Shown piece by piece: positions 19,495-59,836 of a stretch of 64,000 bases of DNA. A program made the position numbers and the translations under genes. Origin of the DNA: a virus; the IMG/VR virus record IMGVR_UViG_3300032770_000001, positions 251,931 through 315,930 of that record. One strand, 5' to 3'. Each line of letters starts with the position of its first letter. Positions within the stretch are counted from its first letter, which is position 1. The notes under the pieces were generated by a model. That model was not told the origin of the DNA. It worked only from the letters and a program-made list of their open reading frames with translations, and did not search any database.

Positions 19495-19589
19495 GGGGGA
19501 GAGCACTGGCTGTGCGGCTGGGCCTTATAAACCCGGAGTAGCTCCTGATTAGAGCAGACGGTGGGGTTCGAATCCCTACTCCCCTACCA
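19495..19589 (+). tRNA. class II tRNA, anticodon probably TAT (Ile?)
   Basis: Acceptor GGGGGAG/CTCCCCT, T-arm and CCA are clear. The anticodon region TGGGC-CTTATAA-ACCCG reads TAT, with a C.A mismatch closing the loop. It has a long variable arm (GCTC...GAGC), typical of Leu, Ser or Tyr and not Ile, and a short D-loop. Identity is uncertain. Confidence 0.6.
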
Positions 19590-19619
19590 ATTTCTTCCTT
19601 CCTGTAGTATCATTCCAGC

Positions 19620-35890: not shown

Positions 35891-36290
35891 CGATTTCATT
35901 TGGGCACCGAAAACCGGACTTAGCAGTCTGTTCACCTTAGAGTGTTTCTATTGCGGCATCGAGCTTAAAACTGATGATTTGAGCAAGAAATACGCAAATG
36001 ATGGGGCTACGGTGGACCACAAAGACCCCGTGAGCAAATTCGGGTCTGAGTTGCCAAGCAATAAAGTGGATGCCTGTCGAAAATGTAACTCGGAGAAGAA
36101 TGATCGTAGTCTCGAAGACTACCGTCAATGGCTCATTGTTCAAAATGAATTGAACACGGAAAAACCCGCAATGATTATGGGGCTTCTGGGTTGCTGGACT
36201 AGCGGTCAGTTGCGTCGTAATCCAAGCCCAATGGCTGTTCTATTCGGGATGGAGTGGTTGTTCCCCGGAGAACTGAAAGGGAAAGTATGA
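35883..36290 (+). CDS. HNH endonuclease-like protein
   Basis: 135 aa. 'LECFYCGIELKTDDLSKKYA', 'GATVDHKDPVSKFGSELPSN' and 'CRKCNSEKNDRSLEDYRQWL' are a full HNH set (CxxC, DH, N, CxxCN). Probably a free-standing homing endonuclease. Confidence 0.85.
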   Translation: MGNDFIWAPKTGLSSLFTLECFYCGIELKTDDLSKKYANDGATVDHKDPVSKFGSELPSNKVDACRKCNSEKNDRSLEDYRQWLIVQNELNTEKPAMIMGLLGCWTSGQLRRNPSPMAVLFGMEWLFPGELKGKV

Positions 36291-36619
36291 ACGTCAAGCG
36301 TTGTTGTGGGTGTGGGCTTGTAACATCTCGGATCGGACCGAACAGCTTTCGAACAACGATCAACCCACTTCAGCTTGTGGGAATTACCGACGAGCATTGG
36401 GCTTCGGGCACCTGTCCTGTTTGTTATACCCCCACATTGAAAGACGGAGCAGGAATAACGATTCGTTTGGTCGGCAACTCCCTTTATGAGGTTGTGGGAC
36501 AAAATAAAACTCTTGATCGAAATGAACTCGTTACGTACCTGTGGGAGCAAGGTCTGAGTGCGCGAGAAACGGCTACCGTTTCTGGTATGATCCACGGGTA
36601 TCACGAAGCAACGTTTTAA
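36287..36619 (+). CDS. zinc-type protein (110 aa)
   Basis: ATGA overlap. 'MNVKRCCGCGLVTSRIG' and 'GTCPVCYTPTLKDG' provide two Cys pairs; the C-terminal half is helical. Function unknown. Confidence 0.68.
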   Translation: MNVKRCCGCGLVTSRIGPNSFRTTINPLQLVGITDEHWASGTCPVCYTPTLKDGAGITIRLVGNSLYEVVGQNKTLDRNELVTYLWEQGLSARETATVSGMIHGYHEATF

Positions 36620-36624
36620 CGGTA

Positions 36625-36663
36625 TTCCCGCACGGTAACATTCACCGTGTGATCGTGCGGGAA
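36625..36663 (+). terminator. nested hairpin, possible terminator
   Basis: TTCCCGCAC (36625-36633) and GTGCGGGAA (36655-36663) pair perfectly. CACGGT (36631-36636) and ACCGTG (36644-36649) form a competing inner hairpin. Only weak T-rich sequence follows, so it may be a switch or a processing site. Confidence 0.45.
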
Positions 36664-36688
36664 ACCTGATTTGTTACCGGACGGGAAT

Positions 36689-36922
36689 ATGCCACACGTG
36701 CAGGGTTGCTTGTTTTGTTTGCTGGAAAAGCTAACTGTGATCTTCGGCTTCGCGGCAATAGGGCTGGTGTGCATCTTCGGGATGCTGGTGGACGCGGTTC
36801 ATTTTCGCTTCCTGATGGCAGCCAAGGATTTGATCGGTTATTTCATCGCTATAGTAGGGATCAGCGTGGTACCGAAAATGATAGATCGGTTTCACGGTTT
36901 ACTGGATCAGTGGGGATTATGA
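36689..36922 (+). CDS. membrane protein (77 aa)
   Basis: ATG behind GGACGGGA (a TTG six codons upstream is possible). Membrane segments about 13-34 and 45-62. Two Cys at the N-terminus. Function unknown. Confidence 0.65.
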   Translation: MPHVQGCLFCLLEKLTVIFGFAAIGLVCIFGMLVDAVHFRFLMAAKDLIGYFIAIVGISVVPKMIDRFHGLLDQWGL

Positions 36923-37113
36923 AGGTCAACCATCAACGCGGGTATCGGGACGAGCGGGATTACAATGCAATCCTGCGTGGTGGTTGCTGGACATGCGGAA
37001 AGCATGGAGCCGCGAGAAACAGACGCGGTCGCAAGAAGTTTTTCAACTCTCGTGAGCGATTCCGGACGCACATGGAAACTCGGAAGCTTGCGAAAGATGG
37101 TGTGGTAGAGTAG
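36919..37113 (+). CDS. small basic protein (64 aa)
   Basis: ATGA overlap. Arg/Lys-rich with 'GGCWTCGKHGAARNRRGRKK', a CxxC followed by a basic patch. Likely nucleic-acid binding. Confidence 0.65.
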   Translation: MKVNHQRGYRDERDYNAILRGGCWTCGKHGAARNRRGRKKFFNSRERFRTHMETRKLAKDGVVE

Positions 37114-37117
37114 GATT

Positions 37118-37193
37118 GACCCCGTAGCTCAGATGGAAGAGCGGTGCGGTCCTAACGCACAGGTCGAGAGTTCGAATCTCTCCGGGGTCTCCA
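37118..37193 (+). tRNA. tRNA-Arg(CCT)
   Basis: Acceptor GACCCCG/CGGGGTC, D-arm GCTC...GAGC, anticodon arm GTGCG-GTCCTAA-CGCAC, T-arm GAGAG-TTCGAAT-CTCTC, CCA. Canonical. Confidence 0.92.
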
Positions 37194-37197
37194 AGTT

Positions 37198-37353
37198 ATG
37201 AACTGGATGTGGCTTTGCAGGATTGGTTTTCACGATTGGGTGTATTCAGTGTTTCGTCCTGTTGCACCTGAATGTGGTGGTGCCGTACCTTGCTACTACG
37301 AGAAACGCTGTGAGCGTTGCGGTCTCGAAGAGAAGGGCGAGGGTTGGTTTTAG
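37198..37353 (+). CDS. small Cys protein (51 aa)
   Basis: ATG overlaps the spacer five bases after the tRNA CCA. 'FHDWVYSVF' and 'YYEKRCERCGLEE' recall the C...H-x-W...RxCxxCG pattern of short prophage proteins. Function unknown. Confidence 0.65.
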   Translation: MNWMWLCRIGFHDWVYSVFRPVAPECGGAVPCYYEKRCERCGLEEKGEGWF

Positions 37354-37360
37354 GGGGCGT

Positions 37361-37579
37361 ATGCCTACTTTGGTGATTGAGTTCAATCGCAAGATGAATG
37401 ACATCCTCCAGCAGATGGCGGATGAGAAGGGCACGACCAAGGTAGATATCATCCGGCGTGCCGTGGCGTTGTACAAGTACCTGACTAACGAACTAGCCTG
37501 TCGCCGTAAGGGTGACACGCCGAAGAAGTTGGTCATTCGCCGGGGCGATCTGATCTTGAAAGAAGTCGTATTGCCGTGA
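37361..37579 (+). CDS. ribbon-helix-helix DNA-binding protein
   Basis: 72 aa. 'TLVIEFNRKMNDILQQMADE' then 'GTTKVDIIRRAVALYKYLTN' is a CopG/Arc-type strand-helix-helix. These dimerise and bind operators. A perfect palindrome lies at 33954, 3.4 kb upstream. RBS GGGGG. C-terminal part is a basic beta extension. Confidence 0.75.
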   Translation: MPTLVIEFNRKMNDILQQMADEKGTTKVDIIRRAVALYKYLTNELACRRKGDTPKKLVIRRGDLILKEVVLP

Positions 37580-38404: not shown

Positions 38405-38414
38405 CCACAAACGT

Positions 38415-38498
38415 GGGGGCGTAGTCGGGGGGCTCTTCTAAAGCCTTAGCCGTAAACCGGAACTGCGAATGCGAGTTCGAATCTCGCCGCCCCTTCCA
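38415..38498 (+). tRNA. unusual tRNA, anticodon TCT (Arg), lacking a normal D-arm
   Basis: Acceptor GGGGGCG/CGCCCCT, T-arm GCGAG-TTCGAAT-CTCGC and CCA are good. GGGCT-CTTCTAA-AGCCT gives anticodon TCT, but only about seven bases remain for the D-arm, and a 20+ base variable region follows. Either a D-armless tRNA or a degenerate one. Confidence 0.55.
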
Positions 38499-38509
38499 TA
38501 TTTTTCTTT

Positions 38510-53319: not shown

Positions 53320-53343
53320 GTAGCTGAAAACACGCCAATAAAA

Positions 53344-53375
53344 ACTACCCAAAATCCCTTCCCCGCTGGTAGAAT
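53344..53375 (+). promoter_or_regulatory. phage box promoter for Ku
   Basis: ACTACCC (53344-53350), 15 bases, CTGG, -10 TAGAAT (53370-53375), GTAGGC. Here the start position is ATC and the ATG lies 14 bases later behind GGAGGG, so the mRNA has a short leader. Confidence 0.75.
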
Positions 53376-53395: not shown

Positions 53396-54406
53396 ATGGC
53401 GAAATCCAAGAAAGCTGCTCCAGCCGTTGCCGTTGCAGAAGCACCGATCACCAAGGAATCGGCTATGAGCAAGCTGGCAGCAATGCTGAGCCAGCCCGGT
53501 ATCACCCCGGTCGTCGCTCCTACTCCTGAAAAGAAAACCACCAAGAGTTCGGTATTCACTGGCGAACTGGTCATCCTCGAAGGCCGCGCCACTCTCGACA
53601 TCAAGTGCTATAACGCTGCCGAAGCCGACAGCATCGAGCGCAACAACCTGCACGCCCATACCACCAAGCAGAAGAACGAGAAGGGCGAGGACGTTGAAGT
53701 CACCACCTACAGCAAGGTGAAGAACGGCACGCAGTTCTGCTCCGGCTGCAACAAGACGATCTCGAAAGACGAGATCGTGAAGGGCGTCGAAGTCGGCAAG
53801 GACAAATACGTCACCTTGACCGATCAGGAAATTCAGGAAGTCGCACCGCTCAAGGCGAATCAGATGTTCGTTACCGCCTACGTCAAGCCGGAAGATGTCA
53901 ACCTGACCTACATCGAAGATTCCGAGTACGTCTGCATCGACCCGGACAGCAAGAACCCTCGCAAGGAAGTTTTCGACACGTTCGTCGATGCGATGTTCAA
54001 GCACGGTCGTTACGGCAAGGGTGTGCGTGTGAAAGGCAATCGTGAGCAGTATTTCATCATTCGCCCGGTCATGAACAAGCTGGCGGATGGCTCCATCGCC
54101 TACGGCATGATGCTGCACCACCTGTTCGCGGAATACGAAGTCCGCGAGTGCAACAAGTTCCAGAAGGCTGAGCCGAACTCGGAATTGTCGGCAGTCATCG
54201 GTCAGTACATGGAAGAGACGACCGAGGGTTTCGTCCCGGCAAAGTACGACAGCTTCCTCGGCAACACGCGCAATCTGGTGTTGGCGAAGTCGAACGGTGC
54301 CGTTGCGTCGATCAAGCAGTCGCACATGGCGCAGGCTCCTGCGACCGATCTGATCGGTGCTTTGAAAGACGCTCTCAAGACGAAGAGCGCCAAGGCTGGC
54401 AAATAA
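53396..54406 (+). CDS. Ku-like DNA-end-binding protein
   Basis: 336 aa. Ku dimers thread onto DNA double-strand ends. Core match: 'FTGELVILEGRATLDIKCYN' (first strands), 'NNLHAHTTKQKNEKGEDVEV', 'FCSGCNKTISKDEIVKGVEV' then 'GKDKYVTLTDQEIQEV', the bacterial Ku signature (C-x2-C, D-x-I-V-K-G, K-Y-V-x-L-T-D). An N-terminal Ala/Lys-rich tail (about 1-45) is extra; the C-terminus is basic. Some mycobacteriophages use a Ku with host LigD to circularise genomes; here the phage also has LigA. A Gam-type nuclease-blocking role is the alternative. Confidence 0.83.
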   Translation: MAKSKKAAPAVAVAEAPITKESAMSKLAAMLSQPGITPVVAPTPEKKTTKSSVFTGELVILEGRATLDIKCYNAAEADSIERNNLHAHTTKQKNEKGEDVEVTTYSKVKNGTQFCSGCNKTISKDEIVKGVEVGKDKYVTLTDQEIQEVAPLKANQMFVTAYVKPEDVNLTYIEDSEYVCIDPDSKNPRKEVFDTFVDAMFKHGRYGKGVRVKGNREQYFIIRPVMNKLADGSIAYGMMLHHLFAEYEVRECNKFQKAEPNSELSAVIGQYMEETTEGFVPAKYDSFLGNTRNLVLAKSNGAVASIKQSHMAQAPATDLIGALKDALKTKSAKAGK

Positions 54407-54409
54407 GTT

Positions 54410-54784
54410 CGTGCCGTGCGTAGTCGAAAGGCTTACACCAAGTCCGCTGTAGTCGGCAGCCAGTGCCCACACGGATTCAGGTAGCGCACGGCACATAGAT
54501 TTCAACCCGGTGTAAACGGGAAGGGGTGTAAACGGTTCGCCGGAATGAAGCCCCCGGAACATCGCCGGACGAAGCCGGGTTGAGAGGAAAGAGACCACGC
54601 CCTATATAGGCGTGGCGGTGAGGCGGGTTCCGTAAAAGAGCGGCCCACGATGTACCTGACAGCATAGGGAGGGCTTAGCGACAAACACTGGTGTCCGGCA
54701 GTAAGCTACGCCCGGAGAAACAAAACGGACGCCGGAAGGAATGGTTGAGACCGAACCGCCTCATGCAGATTTAGGAGGGAAGCA
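54410..54784 (+). ncRNA. highly structured non-coding region, candidate structured RNA
   Basis: 375 bases without a gene. Helices: GTGCCGTGCG (54411-54420) with CGCACGGCAC (54485-54494), 10 bp; CAACCCGG (54503-54510) with CCGGGTTG (54575-54582), 8 bp; CCACGCC/GGCGTGG hairpin (54595-54615); GAGGCGGGTTC (54620-54630) with GAACCGCCTC (54753-54762), 10 bp plus one bulge, closing a 120-base domain that holds GTCCG/CGGAC. GTGTAAACGG occurs twice (about 54510 and 54526). Not recognised as RNase P, tmRNA, 6S or a group I/II intron. It could also be the Ku 3' UTR or an origin. Confidence 0.6.
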
Positions 54785-54982
54785 ATGGCGAAACGATATC
54801 TTGGCAGGCCATACATCATCGGCCTTGATCGGCGGCATGGCACGGCTGGTCTGTTGGATGAACTACGAAGGGTCGCACGAGCGACTCAGAAGGCCGATAA
54901 AAAAGCTGACGTGGTCACGAGGGGGCGACATCCGAAAAGTTCTCCGAATGCGCTCAGAAAGGCTCTCGACGAACTGGCATGA
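54785..54982 (+). CDS. small basic protein (65 aa)
   Basis: ATG behind TAGGAGGGA, at the end of the structured region. Lys/Arg-rich ('VARATQKADKKADVVTRGRH'). Function unknown. Confidence 0.68.
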   Translation: MAKRYLGRPYIIGLDRRHGTAGLLDELRRVARATQKADKKADVVTRGRHPKSSPNALRKALDELA

Positions 54983-59477: not shown

Positions 59478-59509
59478 CCTACCTTTTTCGACTCGTTGAC
59501 TGGTAGAAT
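59478..59509 (+). promoter_or_regulatory. phage box promoter, leaderless
   Basis: CCTACCT (59478-59484), 15 bases, CTGG, -10 TAGAAT (59504-59509), GTAGGC, ATG 59516. Confidence 0.75.
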
Positions 59510-59515
59510 GTAGGC

Positions 59516-59836
59516 ATGGACAACAGCGTACCGCAAACGATTCTCCAGCAGTTAGGCGGCAGCCGCTTTCGCACCATGACCGGGGCGCACAGCTTCACCG
59601 CTGACGGCAACAGCTTGATCTTCAAACTGCCCCGCACGTCCAACAAAAAGCGCATCGCTGGCGTCAAGATCACCCTGACGCCGCAAGACGAGTACGACAT
59701 GGAGTTCTTCGCGTTCCGTGGTTCGCTGTCGAAGGGCAACTACCGCTGCGAGACAGTCGCCAAGCACGATGGTATCTATTGCGACATGTTGCAGGACATC
59801 TTCACGCAGGAGACCGGGCTGGACACCCACCTATAA
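59516..59836 (+). CDS. hypothetical protein (106 aa)
   Basis: Leaderless start as above. 'FRTMTGAHSFTADGNSLIFK', 'YDMEFFAFRGSLSKGNYRCE', 'GIYCDMLQDIFTQETGL' match a small phage/prophage protein family of unknown function, all alpha+beta. Confidence 0.75.
   Translation: MDNSVPQTILQQLGGSRFRTMTGAHSFTADGNSLIFKLPRTSNKKRIAGVKITLTPQDEYDMEFFAFRGSLSKGNYRCETVAKHDGIYCDMLQDIFTQETGLDTHL

Follow-up and report, generated by a model that had tools for sequence, protein, structure and literature searches.

The window that we analysed, a stretch of 64,000 nucleotides, corresponds to bases 251,931-315,930 of a 455,708-bp virus record, a 455.7-kb jumbo phage from soil. In it, two genes whose products of 880 and 450 amino acids are RIIA- and RIIB-like lie upstream of a gene that a preliminary description had read as Ku, an assignment borne out by Pfam, and directly after this gene comes a 375-base gap (54410-54784), across which the window copy has no long plus-strand frame. 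A terminase search matched 25 IMG/VR relatives, and the best cultured match was Tunturiibacter phage Tunturi_5, a 309-kb jumbo phage of Acidobacteriota (PMC11924767); at 43% identity the relationship is distant, and it is only through this distant relative that a host of the window phage is hinted at. Three relatives recur below: G002 (IMGVR 3300030618_000009), G005 (3300037391_000010) and G007 (3300033405_000002, a 332-kb record). The features of the locus are:

53321-53375, plus strand: promoter-like element before Ku, TAGCTGAAAACA ... GGTAGAAT, the dispersed promoter motif of the clade
53396-54406, plus strand: Ku-domain protein of 336 amino acids, adjoining the gap upstream (Pfam PF02735, E = 1.6e-20; PHROG 4873)
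54411-54494, plus strand: module D1, a 10-bp closing helix (54411-54420/54485-54494) with an inner arm
54422-54433, plus strand: GAAA-tetraloop hairpin of D1, its GNRA loop kept in G002 (GAAA/GCAA)
54502-54583, plus strand: module D2, with a 9-bp closing helix (54502-54510/54575-54583)
54595-54615, plus strand: D3 hairpin of 7 bp (CCACGCC/GGCGTGG), all seven pairs kept in four phages
54619-54763, plus strand: D4 domain, closed by the 8-bp helix P1 (54619-54626/54756-54763)
54630-54643 and 54644-54646/54671-54673, plus strand: inner arms P2 and P3 of D4
54655-54668, 54688-54697/54726-54735 and 54743-54752, plus strand: inner arms P4, P5 and P6 of D4
54638-54684, plus strand: near-invariant D4 core GAGCGGCCCA ... 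GGGAGGGCTTAGCGACAA (54638-54647 and 54667-54684)
54764-54772, plus strand: 3' boundary of D4, TGCA followed by GATTT, like the phage tRNA trailers (CCA followed by AGTTT or GATTT)
54785-54982, plus strand: small ORF of 65 amino acids 3' of the RNA, matching no PHROG and, above the cut-off, no Pfam family

The helices that the preliminary description had seen in the gap (10 bp, 9 bp, a 7-bp hairpin and 8 bp) are all present at their coordinates, and so is the repeated sequence that it reported, as GTGTAAACGG occurs exactly twice, at 54510 and 54526, both within D2. Its statement that the genome has almost no intergenic space was too strong: other gaps in the gene map of the window measure 150-1070 bases, partly taken up by tRNAs and very small ORFs, and the size of this gap is not unique. 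That the gap folds strikingly well is true of its perfect long helices, which place it in the top 1.6% of windows, but not of its folding energy, which is ordinary for this genome (z = -2.2, with 2 of 100 shuffles as good, and a G+C-corrected rank of 63 among 253 window pieces of the same length). It is the compensatory changes in relatives, and not the folding energy, that lift the gap far above chance. Elsewhere in the window, the long stretch at 36290-37361 carries no confident gene call; perfect helices are dense there, and several very small ORFs are followed by a tRNA-Arg.

Modules D1 and D2 (54411-54583) occur in the window and in one relative, G002, in both of which they lie directly 3' of Ku, the only position where they are known, and the Ku-D1 junction AAATAAGTTCGTG is common to the two; another relative (G023) has no such RNA 3' of its Ku gene. 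When D1 is folded from the window alone, 95% of its pairs are kept over the two sequences and five pairs are changed on both sides in G002, compared to 0-1 in slid controls, with 14 of 500 shuffles reaching the observed value, as expected from only two sequences. In the closing helix of D2, five pairs differ on both sides in G002 while pairing is kept, and the G002 module also carries a doubled motif, GTGTAAAGCGG. The sequence TGTAAACG has six copies in the window, of which four are non-coding (33163, 38261, 54511 and 54527): D2 holds two, another lies directly 3' of tRNA-Asn, and the fourth is flanked by tRNAs.

The D3 and D4 module, which spans about 54590-54772, recurs in three relatives. 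There are four distinct copies (window, G002, G005 and G007), and since G002 and G005 are 97.5% identical there, these represent three independent lineages, two of them outside the window. Over the four sequences, 99.1% of cells pair and nine pairs show a double change, a number that none of 500 shuffles reaches and that compares to 0-1 in slid controls. This alignment was fitted to the structure and is therefore biased towards it, but the D3 hairpin, with four pairs changed on both sides among the four phages, and the arms of P1, whose pairs are kept with five changed on both sides, can be read directly from the sequences. P1 encloses 129 bases, including the core that is nearly invariant among the four phages, and model R2, built without G007, finds the G007 copy at E = 1.9e-12. 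The window and G007 share only seven DNA matches: four overlap or adjoin tRNAs, a single gene accounts for two, and the seventh is the D4 core. D3/D4 is thus conserved about as well as tRNAs are between genomes that do not otherwise align. Conserved pairing in relatives, the check that had been named beforehand, was thus found for both modules, and the comparison shows that D1/D2 and D3/D4 adopt the predicted folds and that compensatory mutation maintains them. As their shape and core sequence persist in relatives in which the adjacent small genes differ, we take both to be real functional RNAs.

The two modules are separable, as two small ORFs part D2 from D3 in G002, and the gap is therefore not the single 375-base RNA that it had been taken for. 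Syntenic regions of G002 and G005 share a sharply bounded D3/D4 unit of 163 bp, 159 of them identical, whose edges are the preceding stop codon and the following start codon; all four differences fall at positions unpaired in the predicted structure, and the ORFs on either side are unrelated between the two phages. The ORFs downstream of D3/D4 are unrelated in all four phages. As these copies show, D3/D4 is a discrete unit, about 163-195 bp long, which fits between one stop codon and the next start codon, stays while the adjacent small ORFs differ, and is also found at non-syntenic places.

Its distribution is patchy, with only three lineages known. The unit was not matched in a 463-kb relative at a similar terminase distance, and a search of 14 further terminase relatives with model R1 gave two weak matches only (E ~0.01, 47-nt span), which were rejected. 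Also set aside were IMGVR_3300032954, which is DNA-identical over the region and carries no covariation information, partial, chance-like matches in an unrelated region of two relatives (G015 and G016), and other pattern matches in viral and bacterial contigs that lie within coding sequence or reach at most a weak model score. A blastn search against phages and plasmids gave no convincing match. Tunturi_5 has no clear copy of the RNA, its weak R1 match (E = 0.14) being rejected; the matched place, at ~196.5 kb (L064 1400-1650), is intergenic, structured-looking and without an Rfam family. Two further leader-like sequences were seen in the relatives. A short, structured and conserved 'last' leader (L052 4010-4085; L053 3548-3468, minus strand), GCTGG...CCAGC then AAATTTATG, precedes the same ORF in G002 and G005 and ends GCA followed by AATTT. 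A structured-looking 'mid' leader between the two small ORFs of G002 (L052 3241-3370) ends CCTGCA followed by AAGAATTTGAGGAG, and a tail similar to this end is also present in G005.

We found no sigma-70-like or clade-type promoter within the gap; the nearest plausible one precedes Ku, with an exact TAGCTGAAAACA at 53321 and GGTAGAAT at 53368, and any discrete RNA would therefore have to arise by processing. Dispersed promoter copies with an A/T-rich upstream part, GGGTATAAT, are present in G002 and G005. In these two and other members there are many GG(G)TATAAT promoters with an ATG 5-6 nt downstream, which, with start sites deduced from the usual -10 spacing, imply leaderless messages. An example of such a probable leaderless promoter in the window is at 59502-59515, with the ORF starting at 59516.

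At the 3' end, D4 closes with P1 and NNCA and continues with GATTT in the window and G002, GATTA in G005 and AGTTT in G007. Trailers of the phage tRNAs begin with [AG]1-3TTT in 32 of 69 cases, compared to a background of 1.3% after any CA, although the motif is short and, among the intergenic CA of the window that do not belong to tRNAs, about 2% carry it as well. Several tRNAs have an ORF start 4-7 nt 3' of them. After D4, the ATG follows the CA by 5 nt in G007 and by 4 nt in G005 (GATT-ATG), both without a Shine-Dalgarno sequence, whereas in the window (AGGAGGG, 54773-54779, before the 65-residue ORF) and in G002 the next ORF has one. In G005, a homologue (51% identity) of the ORF that follows the RNA in G007 starts 6 nt after a TATAAT instead and is thus predicted to be leaderless. 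Around the tRNAs themselves, we noted a degenerate tRNA-like sequence at 38411-38500 that is missed by ARAGORN and conserved in G002, a tRNA 3' half at about 19510-19590 (GGGTTCGAATCC...CCTACCA then ATTT) called by neither ARAGORN nor Rfam, and ARAGORN calls of 'tRNA-Pyl' with a CTA anticodon in G002 (69362), G005 (87344) and G007 (192202 and 192413), which are possible amber-suppressor tRNAs.

The reading that we tentatively favour, possible rather than probable, is that of an RNA cassette, swappable within operons, whose 3' end is cut in a tRNA-like manner, the cut defining the 5' end of the message that follows. Two conserved structured-RNA modules would be encoded within one polycistronic phage transcript, and D3/D4 would be cut just after P1, between NNCA and RRTTT, by the 3'-end processing that the phage tRNAs themselves undergo. 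After such a cut, the message of the small ORF that follows would begin at or close to the start codon and would sometimes be nearly leaderless; the invariant core of D4 may be what a processing factor recognises or else the part of the released RNA that carries its function, and D1/D2 may belong to the Ku message as a 3' element or form another unit of this kind. We infer the processing and the leaderless translation from the trailer motif, the spacing to the ATG and the pair of homologous ORFs in G007 and G005, and any role of a released RNA is likewise putative. Several observations count against this reading: P1 with NNCA is non-canonical compared to a CCA end, the Shine-Dalgarno sequences in the window and G002 make a leaderless start unneeded there, and the independent lineages are only three. 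A stronger version, a transferable 'start-maker' whose tRNA-like 3' cut would make the message of the next ORF nearly leaderless and which would take the place of the leaderless promoter of other clade members, strikes us as quite unlikely.

A near-invariant unpaired core inside a covarying scaffold, in copies of D4 that always lie just 5' of a start codon, would also suit a cis-acting leader, be it a riboswitch or a protein-binding element, in which D4 (and D1/D2) binds a ligand or a phage protein through its invariant core and, without leaving the message, modulates how the next ORF is translated or how stable it is. Ordinary riboswitches keep a regulon, whereas the ORFs downstream of these copies are unrelated in four phages, and no Rfam riboswitch matches; we regard such a leader as somewhat unlikely. 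A free-standing non-coding RNA, for example one that acts as a decoy or binds a protein of the phage or of the host, is in our judgement unlikely: it would account for the tRNA-level conservation, the tRNA-like trailer and the changing neighbours, with the next ORF incidental and the placement in operons merely due to these phages putting tRNA-like genes there, but a promoter of its own was not found, and D3/D4 is missing from the 463-kb relative and many others and is hence not essential.

That the same RNA stands between different ORFs in syntenic G002 and G005, with edges at stop and start codons, and that the G007 ORF is located elsewhere in G005 behind a promoter, could also be understood if the unit were a mobile boundary element like the promoter early stem-loops (PeSLs), that is, shared DNA for the exchange of small-ORF cassettes by homologous recombination. 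We consider this improbable, as the unit has no promoter and recombination alone leaves the compensatory changes and the deeply conserved core unexplained. That there is no functional RNA here, and that G+C-rich DNA between genes merely folds by chance or a known intron or coding gene has left a remnant, is hardly credible: such a view agrees with the ordinary folding energy, but is contradicted by the covariation and the conservation across phages. In addition, Rfam has no match to introns of group I or II, and the window copy has no long plus-strand frame.

The RNA adds a covariation-supported structured family that Rfam does not list to jumbo phages, whose genomes hold little non-coding DNA, and, on the reading that we favour, would connect RNA processing with leaderless translation and the exchange of small accessory genes in a concrete and testable way. 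Jumbo phages of the wider group can be grown, as the cultured Tunturi_5 illustrates (PMC11924767).

How does this RNA compare to known families? That it is an unrecognised structured RNA, as first proposed, is supported by the conserved pairing and by Rfam, which has no match for the window or for three relatives: with Rfam 15, there is no non-tRNA match in the window at the curated threshold, and a permissive search of the region and these relatives returned sub-threshold matches only. Two of these, mir-4018 (E = 1.2) and the raiA-hairpin RNA (RF03059; 15.5 bits, well below its threshold of 43.7, with E = 4), were taken as chance, the likeness to the latter being a short CACC-AGTCCG ... GGTG-AAA-GGGA over D1/D2. 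Group I and group II introns and known self-cleaving ribozymes have no Rfam match up to E = 5 in the window and relatives, a search by family models that may leave room for very divergent introns or new ribozymes. The phage tRNA genes of the same genomes resemble D4 in their conservation between the window and G007, in the trailer motif after the 3' end and in the ORF that sometimes starts 4-7 nt downstream; unlike them, D4 has P1 and NNCA rather than an acceptor stem and CCA, has no cloverleaf and is called by neither ARAGORN nor the Rfam tRNA model. The ornate RNAs GOLLD, ROOL and OLE (PMC12286853) are likewise structured non-coding RNAs of phage-type genomes without a known function, but they are large, the modules D1-D4 are much smaller and have no Rfam match to any of them.

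Compensatory changes in independent sequences, the mark of a structured RNA, are found in both modules (nine pairs in D3/D4, five in D1), whereas a downstream gene of one class shared among genomes, the mark of a riboswitch or cis-regulatory leader, is not (four unrelated ORFs). PeSLs, as far as described in PMC4503421 (citing Arbiol 2010 and Comeau 2014), are mobile regulatory cassettes of T4-like phages, and like them D3/D4 is short, conserved and non-coding, lies between small accessory ORFs of the phage and is kept as ORFs are exchanged, as in the 163-bp unit of G002 and G005. Unlike the simple stem-loop described there, D3/D4 has no sigma-70-like or clade-type promoter and combines multi-branched, covarying helices with an invariant core. 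The RNA of the gap is thus a new structured-RNA family of phage operons that lies outside any named family and that, by analogy of arrangement, would be a variant of the known mobile leader-type cassettes.
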